DNA of 64,000 nt from Armatimonas rosea (GTDB lineage Bacteria; Armatimonadota; Armatimonadia; Armatimonadales; Armatimonadaceae): NCBI RefSeq assembly GCF_014202505.1, contig NZ_JACHGW010000003.1:620001-684000 (forward strand), given 5' to 3'. Below the pieces are notes generated by a model, which ran no database searches, had not been told where the DNA came from, and saw only the letters and a program-made list of their open reading frames with translations. The translations under genes and the position numbers were made by a program. Position 1 is the first letter of the stretch. Each line of letters begins with the position of its first letter. Positions 34,268 to 45,596 of this stretch are shown here, in pieces.

Positions 34268-34353
34268 GGGGCAGTATTCGCGCTCTCCCCGGCAAAAACC
34301 TTTGCATCTTGGAAATTGCGGCGGTAACATTGTGAAAGGATTCACGAAGTGCC

Positions 34354-34484
34354 GCCTCATTCCATGAGGCGTCTGCAGTGGCGTTCCGCCGCGAAGCCTG
34401 TGCCAGGCTGGAGAGCGCACTTCCCCAGCCCGGAACGGGCTTTGCGGCACGCAGTGCCACTGCAGACGCCGGTTTTCAACCGGC
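34354..34484. repeat. Hairpin-capped intergenic element HCE-9
   Basis: Cap hairpins at 34354-34370 (stem GCCTCAT, loop TCC) and 34468-34484 (stem GCCGGTT, loop TTC). Inner arms GTCTGCAGTGGC (34371-34382) and GCCACTGCAGAC (34456-34467) are exact reverse complements, and a second inner pair (AGCCTGTGCCAGGCT, AGCCCGGAACGGGCT) forms local hairpins. The arms are shared with HCE-1 and HCE-13. Confidence 0.85.
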
Positions 34485-34500
34485 GGCGAGATGAAACATC

Positions 34501-35580
34501 ATGGGTAAACCGCCAATCAAAGCCTTGCTCCTCACTCTGGCTGGGGTCTGGACCGCCGCCGGGCTGGGAATCTACTCGCTGACCCGCTTCGACCGCCAGC
34601 AGAACATCACGATGCTCCTGCCGCGGACGAAGGCACCGATCTTTGTCTTGCCCGACCAGACCGGACGGCTCCACAACCTCGCGGACTACGACCAGCGCTC
34701 GGTGGCCTTGGTCTTCCTGCCGGGCGTCAGCGACGAGGTACGGGGGGAGCTGCGCTCGCTCAAGAACGAGATGAAGCGCTTCGATAAGATCGGGGTGAAG
34801 GTCTTTGCGGTCGCGCCCCTGGAGAGGTCGGTCGCGGCCGAGCTCCACGACAGCGAGTCGCTCAACTTCCCGATCCTGCTCGATACGGGCGGCAAGATCG
34901 GGCAGCAGTTTGGAGTCGCGCCCGGTCGGCCCTATGTCTCGTATGTCCTCGGGCCTCAGGCCAAGGTGCTCCTGCCCATTGCGACCGTCCAGCCCAAGGA
35001 GCACGGGACCCAGCTGGTCGAGCTCGCGGCCTGCTTCTTTGATACGTTTGCGTCGGGCAAGAACCCCCTGATCGACAAGCCAGTGGCGGACGCGACCCTC
35101 CCCAAGGCCGATGGCACGGGCTCCGAGAGCCTCTACGGCGATAAAAAACAAAAGGCGACTGTCGTGCTGTTTCTCTCGGCGCGCTGTCCCTGCTCCGGTG
35201 GCTACGACAAGCGCAATAAAGAGCTGGCCGATGCCTATGCCTCCAAGGGCGTGCGCTTTGTGGCGGTGAACTCCAGCGCCGACGAGCCCGACGCCGAGAT
35301 CGCGGCCCATGCCAAGGCCCACGGCTTTACGTTCCCCGTCCTGCGCGATGCCGACCACAAACTCGCCGATACCCTCAATGCCCAGGTCACCCCCGAGGCG
35401 TTTGTCATGGACGCACAAGGGGTCCTGCGCTACCACGGCCGCATCGACGATAGCCGCGACGAGAAGGCGATCCTGGCCCACGACCTGCGCAACGCTCTGG
35501 ACTTTCTCCTCGCCGGTCAGCCGCCCAAGGTCAAGTCCACGACCCCCTTCGGCTGCTCCATCGCCCGCCAGAAGCTCTAG
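34501..35580 (+). CDS. Membrane-anchored double redoxin
   Basis: 359 residues: an N-terminal anchor or uncleaved signal (KALLLTLAGVWTAAGLGIYSL) and two thioredoxin-fold redoxin domains. The first (about 42-180, APIFVLPDQTGRLHNLADY, VALVFLPGVSDEV) has no Cys at the active-site position. The second (about 195-335) has LSARCPCSGGYDKRN, a CPC motif, plus VTPEAFVMDAQGVLRYHG. A terminal FGCSIARQ resembles the C-terminal Cys tail of planctomycete redoxins. Likely periplasmic. No ribosome site; promoter unclear. The next gene starts on its stop codon. Confidence 0.78.
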   Translation: MGKPPIKALLLTLAGVWTAAGLGIYSLTRFDRQQNITMLLPRTKAPIFVLPDQTGRLHNLADYDQRSVALVFLPGVSDEVRGELRSLKNEMKRFDKIGVKVFAVAPLERSVAAELHDSESLNFPILLDTGGKIGQQFGVAPGRPYVSYVLGPQAKVLLPIATVQPKEHGTQLVELAACFFDTFASGKNPLIDKPVADATLPKADGTGSESLYGDKKQKATVVLFLSARCPCSGGYDKRNKELADAYASKGVRFVAVNSSADEPDAEIAAHAKAHGFTFPVLRDADHKLADTLNAQVTPEAFVMDAQGVLRYHGRIDDSRDEKAILAHDLRNALDFLLAGQPPKVKSTTPFGCSIARQKL

Positions 35581-36197
35581 TGGACCCTCTGGAGGGACTC
35601 GACGAGGTCCCGTGGCACGCGCTAAACCATGCCTACGGCCCGGCGACGGATGTGCCGCGCCTACTCCGCGCCCTGGCCTCTGAGAGCCCTGAGGCGCGCT
35701 GGGATGCGTTTATGCACCTCCATGCGAATATCTACCACCAAGGGACGGTCTATGAGGCGACTCCCTACGCCGTTCCCTTTTTAATTCGTCTCTTTGAGGC
35801 GCCAGAGACACCCGAGCGTGAGCCCGTTGCGCTCTTGCTGGTCATGATTGGGAACGGCTGGGGCTGGCTCGAAGGGCCGGCGACAACGACGCGGCACCTG
35901 CACAAGCGCCTCCTGCGAGCCGGAACTTCCTACGAAAAAGAACAAGAGCGCTCAAGACGCATTGCCGAAGAGGCCCGTGCTTTAGTCGCCCCCGTGCTCC
36001 CACGCGTGATCGCCGCGCTCCCTGCGTTTGCGGGGAGGCTACGAACGAGTATTCTCTATACCCTCGCTGAGTATCCCGCAAACCTCCCCACACTAGAGCC
36101 GATCTTGGAAACGATTCGGCAGTTTGAAGACGAGGCTGCGGCCGAACCCTACTGGCAGCAGATTATCGATTACCTGATCAACAGCTGTGGTGGTTAG
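35580..36197 (+). CDS. HEAT-like repeat protein
   Basis: 205 residues, helical, with WHALNHAYGPATDVPRLLRAL, the conserved block ARWDAFMHLHANIYHQGTVYEATPYAVPFLI and later repeats (VAPVLPRVIAALPAFAGRLR, LYTLAEYPANL). This head sequence is typical of a family of HEAT-repeat proteins in actinobacteria and others. The GTG start shares its first base with the redoxin stop (TAGTG), so translation is coupled. It overlaps four bases with the converging membrane-array gene. Confidence 0.72.
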   Translation: MDPLEGLDEVPWHALNHAYGPATDVPRLLRALASESPEARWDAFMHLHANIYHQGTVYEATPYAVPFLIRLFEAPETPEREPVALLLVMIGNGWGWLEGPATTTRHLHKRLLRAGTSYEKEQERSRRIAEEARALVAPVLPRVIAALPAFAGRLRTSILYTLAEYPANLPTLEPILETIRQFEDEAAAEPYWQQIIDYLINSCGG

Positions 36198-36634
36198 ATG
36201 TCTTTCTCTCCCTCCCGTTGCTTGACATACCAGGTCAGCCAGCTCAACCAGAACAGGGTGGCGGCGATTCCCAGGATCGGGAGGTACTCACCGGAGTAGC
36301 CCAGCTCACCTCGGTTCCAGCCGTCGTAGAGAGTAAAGAGGAGTAGGGCAGTGCTCATGACTGCAGCGACGAGATAGAGCCCTCGTGCTCCCTTGCGCAG
36401 GCGGAGAAACAGGAAAAGCCCCGCAAGGCTACTGGCAAACAATCCAAGTAAGAGGGCTACTTGGGCGATGAGATAGTCCAAGCGCTGGTTGCTCCAGTTC
36501 CCCCAGAAGAGTTGCCAGAAGTAGACAAACCCGGCGCTCCCAAAGACAAGGCTCAGGGTGGCAAAAAACCTCTCGATACCATTGAGGCGCACGGGCCGGT
36601 GCGCGGTCTTTGGTCGCTCGTGTTGCTGCTGCAT
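36194..36634 (-). CDS. Four-helix membrane protein, array member 7 (type A)
   Basis: 146 residues. Basic Gln-rich N-terminus (MQQQHERPKTAHRPVR), four hydrophobic segments, and a polar tail (YVKQREGEKDI). Closest relative in the array is member 4 (37497-37916): both share SLVxGxAGFxYFW, AQxALLLG, the loop FxLYDGWNRGE-like, and TxFWxxWxxW. The start overlaps the previous stop (TGATG). No known family, no catalytic motif. Last gene of the array. Confidence 0.75.
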   Translation of the reverse strand: MQQQHERPKTAHRPVRLNGIERFFATLSLVFGSAGFVYFWQLFWGNWSNQRLDYLIAQVALLLGLFASSLAGLFLFLRLRKGARGLYLVAAVMSTALLLFTLYDGWNRGELGYSGEYLPILGIAATLFWLSWLTWYVKQREGEKDI

Positions 36635-37065
36635 CAGGGCGAGTCTCCCGCGTTCGTGTCTTCCCGCCGCGAGAGCCAGCGAGCGATCAGGGCGTGTACC
36701 AGCCCGATCAGAAAGACGATATCACAGTAGGCTAAGGCTGCAGGGTGGTAGGTGCCGTCGGGGCGGCGTCCGACCAACAGTGCGTTTGCGAAAAGGCACC
36801 ACCAGGCCACGGCACTAAGAAACTGAAACAGCGCCGCGATCCGCCGGGCACGTAGGAGGAGCAGGGTACCCGCACCGATGTAGCCTACGAGTGCCAAAAA
36901 GAGACCCCACGAGATCAGCACCGTCGGGTCCCAGTAACGAGGGAAGTCAGGCACGGGGGGACGCAAAAAGCCCACACCAAGCGCCAGGCCGAGATTGAGA
37001 GTCATGATCACAAGCTCAGCCGGTGTGAACGTGCTCCCCTTGCGCTTTTGCTGCTGCCTCTGCAT
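36634..37065 (-). CDS. Four-helix membrane protein, array member 6 (type B)
   Basis: 143 residues. MQRQQQKRKG N-terminus, four helices (LVIMTLNLGLALGVGFL, ISWGLFLALVGYIGAGTLLLL, LFQFLSAVAWWCLFANALL, DIVFLIGLVHALIARWL) and the cytosolic loop RARRIAALF. Closest to member 5 (37925-38353): LNLGLxxGxGFL, GLFLAxVGYxGxG, AWWC, GRxPDGxYHP, FLIGLxHALxARWL. Three-base gap to the previous gene. Function unknown. Confidence 0.75.
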   Translation of the reverse strand: MQRQQQKRKGSTFTPAELVIMTLNLGLALGVGFLRPPVPDFPRYWDPTVLISWGLFLALVGYIGAGTLLLLRARRIAALFQFLSAVAWWCLFANALLVGRRPDGTYHPAALAYCDIVFLIGLVHALIARWLSRREDTNAGDSP

Positions 37066-37068
37066 GGC

Positions 37069-37500
37069 CTATGCCCTCTCCATACCTGCGAGTCGCCAGA
37101 GCCAGCGGGCGATGAGGGCGTGAACCAGGCCGATCAAAAAGAGCAGGCTACAGACAAAAACGGCGAAAGCATCGAGGCGGCCATTGAAATTGAGGAAGCC
37201 AAAGACGGCGATCACGATCCCAAACCACCACGCCGTGGCACACAGCGCCTGAAAAAATGCGGCGATACGGCGTGCGTGGACAAGCAGCGCCACTGTGGTT
37301 CCTAGCAGGGCTAGCTCCAATAAACACCACGCGAGCCCTCCATCATACCAGTTGACCAGGGGGAATCGGAACGGGCGCAGTAGGCTACGCCAACCCGTGA
37401 GCGTTGCCAGAAGCGAGCCAACGAGGAGCACCCACTCGCCCCCGGTTCGGTGTTTAGATACCGCAGCGTGCGTTTGGTGCTGTTTCTGCGACTGCATCAT
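37069..37500 (-). CDS. Four-helix membrane protein, array member 5 in transcription order (type B)
   Basis: 143 residues. N-terminus MMQSQKQHQTHAAVSKHRTGGEW, four helices (VLLVGSLLATLTGW, LELALLGTTVALLVH, ALCATAWWFGIVIAVFGF, FVCSLLFLIGLVHALIARWLW) and the shared ARRIAAFFQ loop. Two adjacent ATG codons overlap the stop of the preceding gene (ATGATG). It most resembles member 2 (38357-38767) in position and pattern. Function unknown. Confidence 0.75.
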   Translation of the reverse strand: MMQSQKQHQTHAAVSKHRTGGEWVLLVGSLLATLTGWRSLLRPFRFPLVNWYDGGLAWCLLELALLGTTVALLVHARRIAAFFQALCATAWWFGIVIAVFGFLNFNGRLDAFAVFVCSLLFLIGLVHALIARWLWRLAGMERA

Positions 37501-37916
37501 CTCTCGCTCTCCTGCTTTTTGATAAACCAGGCAAACCAGAATATCCAGAACGTGGCTGCCACAATCCCGGCGATGCCAATCAGATCCCCTCGGTAGTCGC
37601 CGCGATGCCAAGCGTCAAAGATAGCGTAGCCCAGCACAAGCACCGCCAAAAGCCCTGCGCCATGCAGTAGCCACCGTGCCAGTCGACGAGCACAGCAGAG
37701 CACAAAGCCCCCGGCAAGTGTTGTGAGCAGGATTCCCAGAAGAAGAGCCGCCTGAGCCGCCACAACATCCCAGCGCTCCCCGCGCCCGAGGGGCGAGAAG
37801 GAGATCCAGAAGTAGAGAAAGCCTGCGCCCCCTAAGACTAGGCTCAGCCAGCTAAGCGTGATCTCTAACGGATGAAGGCGTGCTTTTGTAGGTCGTTTTT
37901 GCTTCTGTTGGATCAT
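37497..37916 (-). CDS. Four-helix membrane protein, array member 4 (type A)
   Basis: 139 residues. MIQQKQKRPTKARLHPLE N-terminus, helices around WLSLVLGGAGFLYFWISF, AQAALLLGILLTTLAGGFVL, LHGAGLLAVLVLGYAIF and IAGIVAATFWIFWFAWFI, and a KKQESER tail. Sister of member 7 (36194-36634) and distinct from the type B proteins. It encodes FDAWHRGDYRGD, matching YDGWNRGELGYSGE in the sister. Function unknown. Confidence 0.75.
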   Translation of the reverse strand: MIQQKQKRPTKARLHPLEITLSWLSLVLGGAGFLYFWISFSPLGRGERWDVVAAQAALLLGILLTTLAGGFVLCCARRLARWLLHGAGLLAVLVLGYAIFDAWHRGDYRGDLIGIAGIVAATFWIFWFAWFIKKQESER

Positions 37917-37924
37917 GCGTCCTT

Positions 37925-38353
37925 TTACTCCTCACTGTCTCCTTGGAAGCGCCAGAGCCACCGGGCGAGAAGGGCATGGATCAGACCGATCAGAAAAAGC
38001 ATGCCACAGACGACCCAGGTTGTGGGGTGGTAGCTGCCGTCGGGAAAGCGTCCCTGCACTAGCTCATGGAAGATCATACACCACCAGGCAAGTGCGCAGA
38101 CTGCCTCAAAGACCGCCGCGATCCGCCGGGCACGCAAGAGCAGGGTGATGCCTGTGCCTAAGTAGCCGACAAACGCCAAGAACAGCCCCGACTTAATCAT
38201 CACCATCGCGTTCCAGATAAAGGGGAATGGCAGACGTGGATGCAGAAAACCGATCCCTATTCCCAGCCCTAGATTGAGAACCAGCACCACCCATTCCGCC
38301 ACGGTGTGTCGTGCCGTCTTCGTCTTTTGTTTTTGCAGTTGTTGCTGTGGCAC
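37925..38353 (-). CDS. Four-helix membrane protein, array member 3 (type B)
   Basis: 142 residues. MPQQQLQKQKTKTARHTVAEW N-terminus; helices VVLVLNLGLGIGIGFL, GLFLAFVGYLGTGITLLL, VFEAVCALAWWCMIFHELV, GMLFLIGLIHALLARWLW; loop RARRIAAVF; acidic tail GDSEE. Eight-base gap to the next gene. Closest to member 6. Function unknown. Confidence 0.75.
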   Translation of the reverse strand: MPQQQLQKQKTKTARHTVAEWVVLVLNLGLGIGIGFLHPRLPFPFIWNAMVMIKSGLFLAFVGYLGTGITLLLRARRIAAVFEAVCALAWWCMIFHELVQGRFPDGSYHPTTWVVCGMLFLIGLIHALLARWLWRFQGDSEE

Positions 38354-38356
38354 GTG

Positions 38357-38767
38357 CTACGCCCCCTCCTCACTGTCGTCTCGGAAGCGCCACAGCCAGC
38401 TTGCGAGCCACGTGAGAAAAAGCCCGATGAGAACGAGGCCGGAGAGGAAGGGCACGCCCCGGGGCGCCAGTGGGTTTTCGAGATGTTGGATGAGGTAGAC
38501 AGCCGCACACCACCAGCCGAGGGCGGCGAGGAACTCAAAGAGAGCCGCCACCTTACGTGCGCGTGTAAGCAGGCTGATGCTGGTGCCCCAGAACCCCACC
38601 GTGCCAAAAAGAACGCCCAGCCCGATCAGGCTCACGGGGTGGTGGATATCTCGCAGGACGGTGGTGAGAAGCAGGGCAGGGACAACATTGGTTGCGAGGA
38701 CGATCCACTCCATCACCGTCCGGCGCACTGCTTTACGTTTTGGCTTCTCTAGTTGTAGCTGTTGCAT
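38357..38767 (-). CDS. Four-helix membrane protein, array member 2 (type B)
   Basis: 136 residues. MQQLQLEKPKRKAVRRTVMEW N-terminus; helices IVLATNVVPALLLTTVL, GLGVLFGTVGFWGTSISLL, LFEFLAALGWWCAAVYLI, LSGLVLIGLFLTWLASWLW; loop RARKVAALF; tail RDDSEEGA. Three-base gaps on both sides. Function unknown. Confidence 0.75.
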   Translation of the reverse strand: MQQLQLEKPKRKAVRRTVMEWIVLATNVVPALLLTTVLRDIHHPVSLIGLGVLFGTVGFWGTSISLLTRARKVAALFEFLAALGWWCAAVYLIQHLENPLAPRGVPFLSGLVLIGLFLTWLASWLWRFRDDSEEGA

Positions 38768-38770
38768 GGG

Positions 38771-39211
38771 CTATTCCTCACTATCGGACGCGCGCTTGCA
38801 GAGGCCATAGGCACCGAGCAGGTAGAGCGCCATGGCGAGCAGCAACGAGAGGGCGGGGATATTGCTGTGTGGGATGCCCCTTTGGAGGGTTCGGAGGAGG
38901 AGAGTGGCAAGAAGGGACGCTCCTCCCACCATCCCGAGTAGCTGAAACCAGCGCGCGACTCGGGCGGAGCGGGAGATCAGCAGAAAAAGCCCGGAGAACA
39001 GCGCCCCGGTGCCACCTAGCAGGAGTCCGATAAAGAGGAAGAGATTAAACGTATTGTTGTACCAAGGGTAGGGCAGCTCTGTCATAAACGCAAAGGCCAA
39101 GGCAAACCCAGAGGTAAGACCAACAAAGAAGTTGAAGACGATCAGTACCCACTCGACAATGGTGCGGGGCGCGACCTCGCGCTCTGGCTTCTTCTGTTGC
39201 TGCTGTACCAT
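38771..39211 (-). CDS. Four-helix membrane protein, array member 1 (head gene)
   Basis: 146 residues. MVQQQQKKPEREVAPRTIVEW N-terminus, four helices (VLIVFNFFVGLTSGFALAFAF, LFLFIGLLLGGTGALFSGLFLL, LLGMVGGASLLATLL, LSLLLAMALYLLGAYGL) and an ASDSEE tail. It is the most diverged member but keeps the Q/K-rich start, the IVEWVLIVFN segment, a SARVARWF loop like RARRIAAxF, and the acidic end. Its ATG has TAAAAT five bases upstream; this leaderless promoter probably drives all seven genes. Confidence 0.75.
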   Translation of the reverse strand: MVQQQQKKPEREVAPRTIVEWVLIVFNFFVGLTSGFALAFAFMTELPYPWYNNTFNLFLFIGLLLGGTGALFSGLFLLISRSARVARWFQLLGMVGGASLLATLLLRTLQRGIPHSNIPALSLLLAMALYLLGAYGLCKRASDSEE

Positions 39212-39216
39212 GCGTC

Positions 39217-39222
39217 ATTTTA
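39217..39222 (-). promoter_or_regulatory. -10 box TAAAAT of the membrane-protein array
   Basis: Minus-strand TAAAAT ends five bases before the ATG at 39211. It lies six bases from the oppositely directed TAAAAT of the sulfatase gene. Confidence 0.6.
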
Positions 39223-39227
39223 TCGCG

Positions 39228-39233
39228 TAAAAT
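39228..39233 (+). promoter_or_regulatory. -10 box TAAAAT, leaderless start of the sulfatase
   Basis: TAAAAT ends six bases before the ATG at 39240; the whole intergenic space is 28 bases. Confidence 0.6.
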
Positions 39234-39239
39234 GCCCCT

Positions 39240-40592
39240 ATGAATATTGTTCTGATCTTTGCCGACGATCTCGCGTATGCCGATGTGGGCTGCTTTGGGG
39301 CCAAGGACATTCGGACGCCGCATATCGACTCTCTAGCGCGCGATGGCGTGCGCTTCACGGACTTCTATGTCGCGCAGCCGGTGTGCTCGGCGAGCCGGGC
39401 AGCACTGCTCTCGGGGTGCTACTCGGGGCGGGTGGGGATTCAGGGCGCACTGGGGCCGGCCAGTAAGATCGGGATCAGCGCCGACGAGACGATCCTGCCA
39501 CAGGTGCTCAAGGCGAAGGGCTTTGCGACCGGCGCGGTGGGGAAGTGGCACCTGGGGCATCTGCCGGAGTTCAACCCCACACGCCACGGCTTCGACGAGT
39601 GGCTGGGGCTGCCGTACTCCAACGACATGTGGCCCAACCACCCGGACACGCCCCGTGCCTACCCGCCGCTGCAGCTCATGGACGGTGAGAAGCCCGTGGA
39701 GACGATCCTGAACCTGGAGCAGATGGGGACCCTAACCCAGCGCTACACGGATCGCGCGGTGGGCTTTATCGAGAAGCACGCGGGCAAGCGTCCGTTCTTT
39801 CTGTACGTTGCACACTCCATGCCGCACGTTCCCCTGGCACCGGGGAAGAAGTGGCAAGGGCGCTCCCAGCGCGGCACGTTTGGCGATGTGATCGAGGAGC
39901 TCGACGACTCCGTGGGGCAGGTCTTGGCGGCGCTGAAACGCACAGGTGTGGAGCGCGAGACGCTCGTGATCTTCACATCGGACAACGGTCCCTGGCTGAG
40001 CTACGGGGAGCACGCCGGGAGCGCCGGGCCCCTGCGCGAGGGGAAGGGCACGTGCTGGGACGGCGGCGTCCGCGAGCCTTTTGTGGCCCGCTGGCCGGGG
40101 CATATTCGTCCCTGCAGTGTCATCACCGAGCCCGCGATGACCATCGACCTCCTGCCGACAATCGCCAAGCTGACCGGCGCGCCGCTGCCCAAGAACAAGC
40201 TGGATGGGAAGGATATCTGGCCCTTGCTCAGTGGAGACACCCGCGCCAAGAGCCCGCAGGAGGCGTACTTTTTCTACTACAACACCAACGAGCTCCAGGC
40301 CGTGCGCTCCGGGCGGTGGAAGGTCATGCTCCCGCAGTCGTACCGCAGCCTCGGCCCCTACCCCGAGACCGCGCGGGGCGGCAAGCCCGTGACCTACAAG
40401 ATGGCCAAGATCACCCGCCCGCTACTCTTTGATCTGGTCGCCGATCCGGGGGAGACCACCGACCTCGCCGCCCAGCACCCCGAGATCCTCAAGCGCCTCC
40501 TCGCCCTCGCCGAGCAAGCCCGCGAGGAGCTCGGCGACGGTCCCAACCGAATCGGCAAGGGAATCCGCCCCGTCGGGCGCGTACCAGGCTAG
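39240..40592 (+). CDS. Type I sulfatase (arylsulfatase-like)
   Basis: Hydrolyses sulfate esters; 450 residues. Metal ligands Asp9 and Asp10 (FADDLAYADVG) and the formylglycine motif CSASR (Cys49, Arg53) followed by LLSGCYSGR, GKWHLGH, HSMPHVPL and FTSDNGPW are typical. The CxAxR form is accepted by the formylglycine-generating enzyme, whose gene is not in the window. There is no signal peptide, and the leaderless promoter fixes the start, so this sulfatase appears cytosolic, unlike most. It converges four bases into the RHH-kinase-like gene. Confidence 0.94.
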   Translation: MNIVLIFADDLAYADVGCFGAKDIRTPHIDSLARDGVRFTDFYVAQPVCSASRAALLSGCYSGRVGIQGALGPASKIGISADETILPQVLKAKGFATGAVGKWHLGHLPEFNPTRHGFDEWLGLPYSNDMWPNHPDTPRAYPPLQLMDGEKPVETILNLEQMGTLTQRYTDRAVGFIEKHAGKRPFFLYVAHSMPHVPLAPGKKWQGRSQRGTFGDVIEELDDSVGQVLAALKRTGVERETLVIFTSDNGPWLSYGEHAGSAGPLREGKGTCWDGGVREPFVARWPGHIRPCSVITEPAMTIDLLPTIAKLTGAPLPKNKLDGKDIWPLLSGDTRAKSPQEAYFFYYNTNELQAVRSGRWKVMLPQSYRSLGPYPETARGGKPVTYKMAKITRPLLFDLVADPGETTDLAAQHPEILKRLLALAEQAREELGDGPNRIGKGIRPVGRVPG

Positions 40593-41386
40593 GGCGTCTC
40601 CGTGCTTTCGTCGAAGAGGCGGAGCGTCATGGTGACGCTTGCGCCCTTGTCCGGGCCGGGGGAGTCGTGCTCGCAGGTGCCCTGGTGCCACTGGATAAAC
40701 GGCATGCCTAAATCCCGAACGGGCTTGTCGCGAAAGGTGATAAAGACCTGGCCCGCTCTAACCCGTTCGGCGAGCTCTCGACGCTCCACCGGGTCAAACC
40801 CCTGGCCTTGGTCCGTGATGCAGATCGTGAGTGTATCTGGGGCGGGTCTCTCCAGCCGAAGCCGGACCTCGCCGCCTTGGGGAGAGGACCTCAACGCGTC
40901 TTCCAGAAACATCCAGAGTGTCTCCTTCAGCGCCTCGGCATCGGTGAGGAGAGTTTTGGGGAGATTGTCACCCACCTCCAGCACAAACGTGTGGGTCGGC
41001 AGGCGGTAGGGGGACTTCGCCGCCTCATCGCGCACCGCTTCGAGGATGTCCTTGAGCCGCGTTGGCTGGGCATGGAACGGCACGGGCTGTAGGCAGGCTT
41101 TGAGGGCATCGCACTCTCTGTCGATGATCGCATAGAACTCCAAGCGGTCGGGGTGCGCAAACATCGTCCCGTCCTCGTCCGTGAGCATGATCGAAATAAA
41201 CCCCTTGATCGAGGTCAGGGCGGTCTGGAAACGCTTGCTTACCCAGAGGCTCTCTTGAGGGGAGAGACGAAGCGAGCGCTCCAAAACCCGTGCCGCTTGG
41301 GTCTCAAAGCCTTGATCTCCCTCGTGTGCCCGCTCTTGCAGGCGAGCAAAGGCTTCGTCGGAAAGCTCAATCGTTATTTTGGGCAT
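40589..41386 (-). CDS. RHH-GHKL fusion protein, third member
   Basis: 265 residues. Residues 1-42 (MPKITIELSDEAFARLQERA...AARVLERSL) look like a ribbon-helix-helix (CopG/Arc-type) DNA-binding domain. Residues about 50-100 match a HisKA dimerisation helix pair (TALTSIKGFISIML, IIDRECDALKACL) but lack the phosphoacceptor His. The C-terminal ATPase-like part has a weak N-box (TLWMFLEDALRSSPQGG) and a good G1 box (DQGQGF), then GASVTMTLRLF. It is the only one of three with DxGxG. It overlaps the previous gene by 20 bases and has GGAGA upstream. Confidence 0.72.
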   Translation of the reverse strand: MPKITIELSDEAFARLQERAHEGDQGFETQAARVLERSLRLSPQESLWVSKRFQTALTSIKGFISIMLTDEDGTMFAHPDRLEFYAIIDRECDALKACLQPVPFHAQPTRLKDILEAVRDEAAKSPYRLPTHTFVLEVGDNLPKTLLTDAEALKETLWMFLEDALRSSPQGGEVRLRLERPAPDTLTICITDQGQGFDPVERRELAERVRAGQVFITFRDKPVRDLGMPFIQWHQGTCEHDSPGPDKGASVTMTLRLFDESTETP

Positions 41387-42431
41387 GGGTTGTCTCCAAG
41401 GAGGAAAGAAACGCCTCTAGCTGGCGGAGCTGGGTGTTTACGGCGTGCGCGAGCTCGGCGCGGGCGGTGGTGGTGAAATGGAGGTGCTCGGGAGAAAGTC
41501 CTTCGCTGTCGCTCAGAAGCTGGAGTGCGATGGTTCGGAGCATCACCATCGCCTCTTGGTACCGCTGGTCATTTTCGAGGGCAACAAAAGAGTCATCAAA
41601 GCGCCGTAGGGTGTACGTGATGGTGGCAGGTTCCTCTTGATCGCCTGCCACAAGGTTCCACGAACCGCCGTGCCACTGCACAAAGAGCCGGGCGAGGTGC
41701 AGAAACGGTGCGCCCATGTACACTGCGTTCTTGACGGGCTTTTCAATGTGCTGTTGAAAGAACTCTCTCCCTGCGGAATCGATGAAAACGCCACGTGTCG
41801 TCAAGGAGACCTGCAAGATGTGGTCTGCCTCTTCCGTCACTGTGATTTCGAGCGTCTCTCCCTCAGGTGTCCACTCTAGCAAGGAATGAATCACTTGAAG
41901 AAGGGCTTGGAGGAAGAGTCTGCCGTCGGTGTGAAGGAGCTGAGGAAGGTTCTCGGCAAGCGACCACACAAGCTGCGGAGCACGTGTCAATCGCTTCTGG
42001 CGGGAGTTGTTGCGCTGGTTTGCTTCCTGGCGCAGAGGCTCGGCTTGTTCCTGTGCGGCTTGCAGGAGATCGCGGAGGATAACCCACTCGGGCTGAAACC
42101 GAAGGCCACGCTGAGGCCGCTTCTCGACAGTGCCAAGTAACAGCTTGAGACGATCACACTCCTTGTCCACGATCTCCAGAAACTCCAGTCGGTCAGAGTG
42201 CGCAAACATCGTCCCGTCTTCGTCTAGGAGCAGGGTGGAAACAAAGCCCTTGATGGAGGTCACCGCCGTATGAAGCGAGTGTTCGCCCTCTACCGTACGA
42301 CGAAGGTAGCCATTCAGAGACTTCTGCACGGCCTGACGCGCATCTTCTTCAGGAGTTAGATCGCGATACCGCGCCCGCTGTGTGAGCTTGGCAAAGTCAT
42401 CATCAGTGAGGTCAATCGTAAGCTGCGGCAT
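41367..42431 (-). CDS. RHH-GHKL fusion protein, second member
   Basis: 354 residues. Ribbon-helix-helix head (MPQLTIDLTDDDFAKLTQRA), HisKA-like helices sharing the phrase TSIKGFxSxxLxDEDG and DRLEFxxIxDxECDxLK with the third member, again without the His, then a GHKL-like domain with a degenerate N-box (LLQVIHSLLEWTPEGE) and no recognisable G1 box. A C-terminal helical extension (TTTARAELAHAVNTQLRQLEAFL) is shared with the first member. Start 42431 has GGAG upstream; ATG 42437 is the alternative. Overlaps the first gene by 20 bases. Confidence 0.7.
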   Translation of the reverse strand: MPQLTIDLTDDDFAKLTQRARYRDLTPEEDARQAVQKSLNGYLRRTVEGEHSLHTAVTSIKGFVSTLLLDEDGTMFAHSDRLEFLEIVDKECDRLKLLLGTVEKRPQRGLRFQPEWVILRDLLQAAQEQAEPLRQEANQRNNSRQKRLTRAPQLVWSLAENLPQLLHTDGRLFLQALLQVIHSLLEWTPEGETLEITVTEEADHILQVSLTTRGVFIDSAGREFFQQHIEKPVKNAVYMGAPFLHLARLFVQWHGGSWNLVAGDQEEPATITYTLRRFDDSFVALENDQRYQEAMVMLRTIALQLLSDSEGLSPEHLHFTTTARAELAHAVNTQLRQLEAFLSSLETTHAQNND

Positions 42432-43398
42432 CTTCATCTCCGGTGAGGTGGGTGACAAGGCTCTGGAGCGCGTCTTGAAGGTCGTGGAGCTCGTCGTTGA
42501 CGAGGGCGATACAGTGCAGGCGCGCGTTGTTGTTGAAGGTAAAGTAACTCTCCGCGACCGCGTCAACACCTTCCAAGAGAATTTGGAGCCGCCCGAGTCG
42601 CTGGTGCAGCCGATGTTTGGTCTCCTTAAACGCCTCGTCATCGGCGACTGGGATGCTCTGTTGGAGCGGGATCGTGACAGAAACAGTCGTGCCTTTCTGC
42701 GCATCTGTAGACAGGGTGAGCTGTCCGTCGAGAAAGCGTACCGAGGCTTGGACAAAAGGGGGGACAAACTCGGGAGCAACGTCAACGGCGGGGCTGGTGA
42801 TCGCAAAGCGGAGCGTCTCATTGGTGGGCAAGTCTACGGTCAGAGTGAGCTTTCCGCCATCAGGAGAGAGTTTTACTAGGTTGTGGAGGAGAGTCTTCAG
42901 CGCAAGAGTGAGCCAGCCGGAATCGACGACGATGGATTCGGGGAGGGGGCCGTGGAGCCAGTACGCGAGGTGATGCCCCTCGTGCCACTCGGGAGTGGTC
43001 TTCGTGTGCTCGACCACGCGCTCCACCAGCTCGCGCAGCACGACATGCTTCAGATTGCGCTCGCCCATGTAGTGAGAGCGCTTGTCCAAGTTGGTACGAA
43101 GGGGATGCCAGTGCTGTAAAAGAGCGCGCATGTAGTCAAGCTGATGGACTATCTTCTGGAAGAGCGCAAATCGGCCTGTGTGCGTGTCCGCTGTCTCTTG
43201 GCTTGCTCGGTCTCGCACCAGTGCCTGAATCGCCGTCAGCAGGGCCGATATCCGCTCCAGTGCTTCACGCTCCCAGGTCGCCAAGCCACTGTCGAGTGCC
43301 ATGGCCGCGTAGCTCTCCAGTTCCTGCTCATGAAACCGTGCGCGTGCAGAAAGACGGGCGTAGGCTTCATCGGTGAGGTCAATCGTGAGCTGCGGCAT
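42412..43398 (-). CDS. RHH-GHKL fusion protein, first member
   Basis: 328 residues. Ribbon-helix-helix head (MPQLTIDLTDEAYARLSARA...AAMALDSGL), a HisKA-like helical pair (ALERISALLTAIQALV, FALFQKIVHQLDYMRALL) without the phosphoacceptor motif, and a GHKL-like domain in which the N-box is best preserved (TLLHNLVKLSPDGGKLTL) and a G2-like GTTVSVTIPL is visible, but the G1 box is lost. The same C-terminal helical domain as member two follows (NNARLHCIALVNDELHDLQDAL). First gene of the triad. Confidence 0.7.
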   Translation of the reverse strand: MPQLTIDLTDEAYARLSARARFHEQELESYAAMALDSGLATWEREALERISALLTAIQALVRDRASQETADTHTGRFALFQKIVHQLDYMRALLQHWHPLRTNLDKRSHYMGERNLKHVVLRELVERVVEHTKTTPEWHEGHHLAYWLHGPLPESIVVDSGWLTLALKTLLHNLVKLSPDGGKLTLTVDLPTNETLRFAITSPAVDVAPEFVPPFVQASVRFLDGQLTLSTDAQKGTTVSVTIPLQQSIPVADDEAFKETKHRLHQRLGRLQILLEGVDAVAESYFTFNNNARLHCIALVNDELHDLQDALQSLVTHLTGDEDAAAYD

Positions 43399-43414
43399 GG
43401 GATTGTTCCGGTGT

Positions 43415-43553
43415 GGCGGGGCCTGAAAGGCCCCGCCTAGGCGATGCTTCGCATCAAGCGGCCCGGGGCCGCACCGAATCTGTCTTTTCTATCTTCGCGG
43501 GCTCGGCCCGCTTCGCCGAAGGCGGTCCAGCCGGGGCCTTTCAGGCCCCGGCT
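43415..43553. repeat. Hairpin-capped intergenic element HCE-10
   Basis: Left cap 43415-43437 is a perfect 10-bp stem with loop GAA; right cap 43529-43553 is a perfect 11-bp stem with loop TTC. Both caps share the GGGGCCT core. Inner hairpins include GATGCTTCGCATC (about 43443-43455) and GCCCGCTTCGCC. It separates the RHH triad from the esterase gene. Confidence 0.85.
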
Positions 43554-43563
43554 GACAGATTCG

Positions 43564-44580: not shown

Positions 44581-44596
44581 GTTTCTTTTTTTCACA

Positions 44597-44726
44597 CGAG
44601 GAGTTGAAAATTCCTCGCTAAAGGCGCTTCGCGCCGAACGTCCTGCCGGACGGAATATCTCTGCCAATTCGCCCGTGAGGGCGTTCGGCAACGTGTTGCC
44701 TCTAGCGAGGAATTTTCAACTCCTCG
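44597..44726. repeat. Hairpin-capped intergenic element HCE-11
   Basis: The outermost 24 bases (44597-44620 and 44703-44726) are exact reverse complements, and each also folds into its own cap hairpin with loop GAA or TTC. Inside are GGCGCTTCGCGCC and CGTCCTGCCGGACG hairpins and inverted GCCGAACG/CGTTCGGC. A clean cruciform-capable unit between two minus-strand genes. Confidence 0.88.
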
Positions 44727-45596
44727 CTACTTCAGGGGGCGACCCTTGAGGGGCTTGCCGTTGGTGTCGAGGATCTGGAAGTGGTGAATCCCCGGCTTGG
44801 TGGTGTCGCGGTGGGTCCAGACAATCTTCTTGTCGCGGGTGATCTCCACCAGTTTGACCTCGTTGCCCTGCGCGTGGTGCGCCGTGATCACCGTGTTGCC
44901 GTTGGGCAGGCGCTGGACACCGCAGCAGTCGTTGAAGGGGCGTCCTTCCAGCTCATCGTTGCTCACCGACCAGATAATCTTCCCTGTCTTATCAAACTCG
45001 ACCGTCAAGTTTGCGATCGTGCAGCCCGTGAGCGTGTTACCATTGTCGAGGCGAATGGCGGTGAAGGCCCAGCTCAGGAAGGCGGAGTTCTCCCAGTTGG
45101 GGGTCTTGGCCTCCCAGACAATCTCGCCCTTGGGGGTGTACTCGCGCACCATCTTATCCAGAAGCTGGGGCACCAGGTAGTTGCCGTTCTTGAGCTTGCG
45201 GGTCATACGGGTCTGGAGGTGGTGGTCCTTGGTCTGTGCCTGGATCGCCACCTCGTGCTTGATCTCGCCAGACTTCTTGTCGATCTCCAGGATGCGCGGC
45301 TTGTTGCCCGCCTCGGTGCAGAGCAGGCGTCCCTTGCCGATATCCTGGACCGTGTTCACCTCGGACTGCGTGCCCTTCCAGTCGAAGAGCACCTTGCCGT
45401 TTTTGTCCACCTCAGCGATCCCACCACCGGGATACTGAGCGCTCTTATTGAGGGCGAGGATGACGTTGCCGTTGGGAAGCACCCAGCCATCGCGGGTCGC
45501 GTGAGGAAACTCCCAGAGAATCTGTCCGCTGCCAGAGCGGATGTAGGTCGCACCACCTGCAGCAAAGAAGGCGTGCGTGATTGGTTCTTGTCGCAT
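44727..45596 (-). CDS. Beta-propeller protein (arylsulfotransferase/PQQ-like)
   Basis: 289 residues made of repeating blades with the D-x-x-G-x-x-x-W pattern (SGSGQILWEFPHAT, VDKNGKVLFDWKG, IDKKSGEIKHEV, YTPKGEIVWEA, FDKTGKIIWSVS, ITRDKKIVWTH) alternating with LPNGNVILAL-type strands, as in arylsulfotransferase (ASST)-like and PQQ-type propellers. No signal peptide and no ASST catalytic His that I can assign. The ATG at 45596 is fixed by TAAAAT five bases upstream; the longer frame adds unrelated residues. Confidence 0.75.
   Translation of the reverse strand: MRQEPITHAFFAAGGATYIRSGSGQILWEFPHATRDGWVLPNGNVILALNKSAQYPGGGIAEVDKNGKVLFDWKGTQSEVNTVQDIGKGRLLCTEAGNKPRILEIDKKSGEIKHEVAIQAQTKDHHLQTRMTRKLKNGNYLVPQLLDKMVREYTPKGEIVWEAKTPNWENSAFLSWAFTAIRLDNGNTLTGCTIANLTVEFDKTGKIIWSVSNDELEGRPFNDCCGVQRLPNGNTVITAHHAQGNEVKLVEITRDKKIVWTHRDTTKPGIHHFQILDTNGKPLKGRPLK

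Follow-up and report, generated by a model that had tools for sequence, protein, structure and literature searches.

Seven tandem genes of a fast-changing, apparently genus-restricted family of predicted four-helix membrane proteins in Armatimonas rosea

We present here an array of seven co-oriented genes in Armatimonas rosea that is the largest cluster of a previously unlisted protein family, one that database searches place in this genus only. Our preferred reading, to which we assign a probability of about 0.5, is a birth-and-death family of four-helix inner-membrane proteins that diverges fast under loose purifying selection, keeps a constant cytoplasmic face, and has been amplified in tandem at this locus. 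We regard it as an appealing orphan family and not as a novel type of system; it combines kept addresses, fast-changing proteins, and recurrent duplication in place, in a phylum that has received little study.

The window, the whole 64,000-nt stretch analyzed, spans C3:620001-684000 of the 6.3-Mb genome. Within it the array comprises seven co-oriented open reading frames (ORFs) on the minus strand, running from 39211 to 36194, with products of 136 to 146 aa and intergenic spacings, from gene 1 to gene 7, of 3, 3, 8, -4, 3, and -1 nt (two overlaps). Comparisons were made with one congener, a draft Lake Pavin Armatimonadetes MAG. The features of the array are as follows.

38771..39211, minus strand, gene 1 (head): 146 aa; predicted leaderless start, with TAAAAT ending 5 nt before the ATG
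38357..38767, minus strand, gene 2 (subtype B): 136 aa; putative Shine-Dalgarno within the terminal Glu-Glu codons of gene 1 (GAGGAA)
37925..38353, minus strand, gene 3 (subtype B): 142 aa; GTG start; putative Shine-Dalgarno GAGGAG inside the DSEE codons of gene 2
37497..37916, minus strand, gene 4 (subtype A): 139 aa; nearest relative, the A gene of the congener (51%)
37069..37500, minus strand, gene 5 (subtype B, most divergent): 143 aa; ATGA overlap with the gene 4 stop
36634..37065, minus strand, gene 6 (subtype B): 143 aa; nearest relative, gene 3 (57%)
36194..36634, minus strand, gene 7 (subtype A): 146 aa; one-base overlap with the gene 6 stop; nearest array member, gene 4 (41%)
39217..39222, minus strand, array -10 box TAAAAT: lies 5 nt upstream of the ATG of gene 1
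39244-39239, minus strand, array -35-like TTCATA: pairs with the TAAAAT of gene 1
39228..39233, plus strand, sulfatase -10 box TAAAAT: 6 nt before the sulfatase start
39240-40592, plus strand, divergent sulfatase gene: adjoins the array, with a 28-bp gap common to both promoters

An earlier sequence-only reading had proposed seven compact genes of 136 to 146 residues with gaps of at most 8 nt, and the ORF coordinates bear this out; its compact-operon claim likewise draws support from the shared orientation, the tight spacing, and the apparently coupled starts. In genes 1 to 3, the final Glu codons (GAGGAA or GAGGAG) appear to double as the ribosome-binding site of the next gene. The TAAAAT before gene 1 is the sole promoter-like site found in 35400-39600; chance would give 0.7 such sites there, so this one box carries little weight by itself. 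A genome-wide pattern strengthens the call, as TANNAT boxes peak sharply 5 to 6 nt before starts (61 of 696 predicted genes) and only 1 of the 69 genes with a box at 4 to 7 nt also has a Shine-Dalgarno. These statistics come from 864 kb of sampled sequence, with starts called by an in-house method that missed or mis-started three of the seven array genes. Gene 1 has the predicted signature of a leaderless gene (a -10 box 5 to 6 nt before the start and no Shine-Dalgarno), and the same box-to-start arrangement is found at the B gene of the congener and at the divergent sulfatase gene. From these signals, the array would appear to be transcribed as one leaderless message with coupled translation. 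C-terminal Glu codons used as ribosome-binding sites, together with a leaderless head gene, would make it an example of compact operon design.

Each of the seven proteins has a basic, Gln-rich N-tail and contains an RxRRxA-like turn. DSEE stands at or near the C terminus of the products of genes 1, 2, and 3, and those of genes 4 and 7 have different acidic endings. The Gln/Lys N-tail, four helices, R-A-R-R-I-A-A-like loop, and acidic tail in several members that had been described from the sequence are thus all present. AF2 models place the helices at residues 18-37, 49-72, 76-100, and 110-135 in gene 3 (subtype B, pLDDT 87) and at 16-40, 49-73, 77-105, and 112-138 in gene 4 (subtype A, pLDDT 90). 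Charges follow a positive-inside pattern, with K+R of 4.0 versus D+E of 0.75 per protein in the N-tail and K+R of 1.75 with no acidic residues in the inner turn. From charge and AF2 models together, we infer inner-membrane proteins with four helices and both termini cytoplasmic. Mean pairwise identity is highest in the inner turn (0.49), reaches 0.26 in the N-tail, and is lowest in the outer loops (0.13 and 0.09) and the C-tail (0.10); the short C-tail is variable in sequence and acidic overall, with conservation no better than that of the outer loops. A Glu at the start of helix 1 is also conserved. This concentration of conservation on the inner side points to a cytoplasmic contact shared by the copies and to outer loops that are free to vary; a need for insertion or folding alone could conceivably conserve the inner face.

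Similarity within each subtype is not due to chance, as B-B pairs exceed shuffles with a preserved hydrophobic pattern by 10 to 26 standard deviations (sd) and the A-A comparison exceeds them by 18 sd. Pairwise A-B similarity is by itself weak (z of 0.3 to 3.0). Profile-profile comparison of A with B gives a probability of 95.9 (E = 6e-9), and A and B each against the dispersed copies give 98.9 and 99.2 (E = 1e-17 and 2e-19); on these profiles, A and B are one family. In the tree, genes 4 and 7 and the congener A gene form the A clade (support 100/99), genes 2, 3, 5, and 6 and the congener B gene form the B clade (95/91), and the head groups with B (88/95), which confirms the two subtypes and the order head-B-B-A-B-B-A given by the sequence-only reading. 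Its closest pairs inside the array, genes 3 and 6 (57% aa) and genes 4 and 7 (41% aa), were also recovered. Its further suggestion, that a B-B-A triplet was duplicated, holds as far as block duplication is concerned; the triplet itself is without statistical support, though not contradicted. Gene 2 is nearer to gene 3 (43%) than to gene 5 (34%), genes 2 and 5 are not a closest pair, and a clade of the two is not rejected (p-AU = 0.30). The minimal unit found again in the congener is a B-A doublet (L039, 3984-4862; genes 3 nt apart, order as in the array), and genes 3-4 and 6-7 represent this doublet twice. The congener B gene scores best with gene 3, but the tree places it with gene 2. A duplicated B-A doublet would be the simplest common unit of array origin.

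The family occurs at ten places in the genome, the array and nine others, three of the ten being tandem, with about 17 intact genes and one interrupted copy. Iterated searches placed copies outside the array as follows.

C1:958.2-960.8k: tandem pair and a third copy, with a Gfo/Idh-type gene in between
C2:959.8-960.6k: pair
C3:248k, C3:589k, C1:1521.8k, C6:190k, and C7:183k: further family places
Both ends of contig C14 (plasmid-like): copy split across the ends, interrupted by an insertion

The congener has the family at five places, with 6 genes in one B-A doublet and four singles. None of the other 10 genomes in the taxonomic family yielded a convincing copy. Elsewhere in the phylum there were only marginal matches, for the most part small fragments of larger membrane proteins or stop-containing frames, which we read as chance. 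Searches of Pfam, NCBIfam, PHROGs, PADLOC, PDB sequences, IMG/VR, and GTDB contigs returned no relative beyond the congener, and Foldseek with one B and one A model returned no significant match. The best but insignificant Foldseek matches of the B model (E = 0.26, TM about 0.5) were claudin-like tetraspans of animals (LHFPL, TARP), which share the four-helix bundle but have no sequence relation to the family, are unranked for the A model, and have a large outer domain that the family proteins lack. A weak profile match over two helices (E = 0.0067) to actinobacterial cytochrome c oxidase polypeptide 4 (6adq_H), a 139-aa membrane subunit, aligns helices 3-4 to the first part of the 6adq_H chain; it was treated as chance, and no respiratory gene was seen near the examined copies.

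Four addresses carry the family in both species: the str operon, acnA, a trypsin-like protease, and GH127. At the str address, the family lies upstream of a small conserved gene and rpsL-rpsG-fusA, with one copy here versus a B-A pair in the congener; fusA and rpsL are each 96% identical between the species. At the address of the trypsin-like protease and a response regulator, each species has one copy, both with an ATG start directly preceded by TATCCTGAGCC. The two proteins share 36% identity versus 80 to 86% aa for the neighbors, a similarity still 8 sd above hydrophobicity-preserving shuffles, and dN is 0.75 for the family versus 0.09 to 0.16 for the neighbors. Downstream of acnA, again with one copy in each species, the family proteins share 32% versus 97% for acnA, with dN of 0.80 versus 0.02. 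Downstream of the GH127-like gene (82%), there are two tandem copies here versus one in the congener. By these comparisons, the family proteins evolve at several times the rate of the products of neighboring genes. For closer family pairs, dN/dS is mostly about 0.26 to 0.6 (NG86) or 0.35 to 1.05 (YN00, where computable) versus 0.04 to 0.13 for neighbor genes, rough values because dS is near saturation, and the family genes are thus constrained, but loosely.

The same data bear on an unlikely though credible alternative, in which a weakly constrained orphan family consists of near-interchangeable copies with a generic function (membrane or envelope dosage) and the rapid change reflects relaxed constraint. 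Values of dN/dS below 1 yet several times those of the neighbors, freely differing copy number, and the copy interrupted by an insertion are all in keeping with it. It accounts poorly for subtype signatures, a Gln tail, and an inner turn that persist at 20 to 30% identity, and for addresses that stay occupied in both species.

Under our preferred reading, the family would spread and shrink by local duplication, with copies diverging very fast, and amplification of a B-A doublet, together with additional B copies and a head copy, would have produced one transcript here. The 5' end of that transcript would coincide with the gene 1 start codon, and its translation would be coupled, some genes taking their ribosome-binding site from the Glu-Glu codons that close the preceding gene. 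The constant cytoplasmic face would comprise the Gln/Lys tail, the E at the start of helix 1, the R-x-R-R-x-A turn, and, following helix 4, an R and an acidic tail; the outer face would be variable. Through the constant face, all copies may dock to one cytoplasmic-side partner or pack together; B and A may work as a pair, and the outer loops may diversify. If the outer loops do diversify, they would point the way to systems of interaction or competition in Armatimonadota.

The sequence-only reading had instead proposed that the seven proteins, kept in fixed order, are distinct subunits of one membrane hetero-oligomer. The compact, co-oriented operon with predicted coupling, the retention of subtypes A and B, and the placement of B before A in both species agree with such a complex, which we nevertheless consider improbable. 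Tandem copy number is 7 here versus 2 in the congener, so that the full gene set and order do not recur in the relative, which has B-A alone; many homologues are single and unlinked in both genomes, which in part matches a finding that this reading had named as counting against it. Nor is the array position common to the two species. The congener, though a draft, has a contig that spans the orthologous region at the sulfatase end of the array, and there a peptidase gene adjoins the orthologous sulfatase gene instead; the orthologue of the gene on the other side of the array sits on a different contig. Stand-alone or B-A paired proteins are rated above a fixed seven-part complex, and a smaller B-A hetero-oligomer is plausible.

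By analogy, the array could resemble a polyimmunity locus, in which each copy would neutralize a different incoming membrane-active toxin or bacteriocin. Homogeneous polyimmunity loci consist of co-oriented, close-set distant paralogues of one type, variable in number and with no adjacent toxin (Zhang et al. 2012, PMC3482391). The array is similar in its tandem, co-oriented, tightly spaced distant paralogues of one protein type, in copy number that varies between relatives (about 17 intact versus 6), and in the absence of a recognized adjacent toxin gene; polyimmunity would also explain fast outer-loop change and variable tandem number, and one copy lies on a plasmid-like contig. We regard this as doubtful. 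Such loci usually occur once per organism, and the family is scattered over about ten places; its proteins are membrane tetraspans without a known immunity domain (no Pfam, NCBIfam, or PADLOC family, and no immunity or defense profile match beyond one chance-level PADLOC match), in a phylum outside those covered by Zhang et al. 2012. No toxin was recognized near the examined copies, and dN/dS is mostly below 1. At similarly long odds, a constant docking tail with diversifying outer loops, fixed addresses, and tandem and plasmid copies might constitute a membrane counterpart of polyimmunity or recognition arrays, serving competition or envelope recognition in Armatimonadota.

Paired SMR (EmrE-like) transporters and dual-topology Fluc channels are also small four-helix membrane proteins, sometimes encoded by adjacent gene pairs. 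An antiparallel B and A pair of this kind, which the small size, four helices, adjacent B-A genes, and conserved Glu at the start of helix 1 might recall, is very improbable: the family has no Pfam match to such families and no significant Foldseek match, its proteins are longer, B and A share one N-in charge pattern (basic N-tail, inner turn) rather than opposite ones, and the Glu lies at the membrane edge, not in the membrane middle.

Separate explanations were considered for the two tails. That the DSEE tail is purely a ribosome-binding site was rejected, since acidic tails also occur in several copies without a close downstream gene, which makes that role at most a dual use. A Gln-rich N terminus as a general trait of the genome, hinted at by the DNA pattern, was rejected as well, with at least 3 Gln in positions 2 to 8 in only 5 of 690 predicted non-array genes. 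Nor can CA-repeat enhancement of leaderless mRNA translation (PMC9031893) explain the Gln tail of the family, because Gln is equally rare in leaderless (0.062) and Shine-Dalgarno (0.058) genes. In the family, Gln dominates positions 3 to 5, at a frequency of 0.67 to 0.89 versus 0.03 to 0.07 genome-wide, and the CAA share in family tails is 53%, versus 16% in gene interiors and 32% at codons 2 to 13 genome-wide.

The array and the divergent sulfatase gene (39240-40592) are separated by a 28-bp divergent promoter region (39212-39239). Its two TAAAAT boxes stand back to back as a near-palindrome, one for the array and the other for the sulfatase gene. Across an 864-kb sample of the A. rosea genome (sequence pieces L111-L150 plus the window), TANNAT lies 5 to 6 nt upstream of the start in 61 of 696 predicted genes, and TANNAT at this distance and a Shine-Dalgarno sequence are nearly mutually exclusive across predicted starts. 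Judged by sequence, the genes with TANNAT so placed are probably leaderless. A literature search of limited extent on leaderless genes in Armatimonadetes yielded no account of the TANNAT pattern.

The following features also lie in the window:
34345-34495, strongly folding palindromic repeat (z -8.7)
40589-43398, minus strand, three tandem paralogues with a ParD/ribbon-helix-like N terminus and a HATPase_c domain
43400-43560, palindromic repeat stretch resembling 34345-34495
44590-44735, palindromic repeat stretch resembling 34345-34495

The HATPase_c paralogues apparently lack the usual HisKA phospho-His motif, and the Lake Pavin congener carries two at the matching position. The palindromic repeats (100 to 150 bp) are dispersed in many copies on both strands of both genomes and are a MITE/REP-like element.

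Contig C14 of A. rosea (29.4 kb; pieces L038, L159, and L043) carries a type I restriction system together with ParA. One gene of the four-helix family is split into halves, one at each contig end, and each half terminates in an inverted repeat of about 40 bp. C14 looks like a plasmid circle opened at a putative insertion sequence within the family gene.

Gln-rich protein starts recur a few times beyond the four-helix family: M-x-Q-Q-[QKE] also begins apparently unrelated membrane proteins, including one DUF1648 and one SHOCT-like protein, in pieces L087, L094, L097, L103, L104, and L108.
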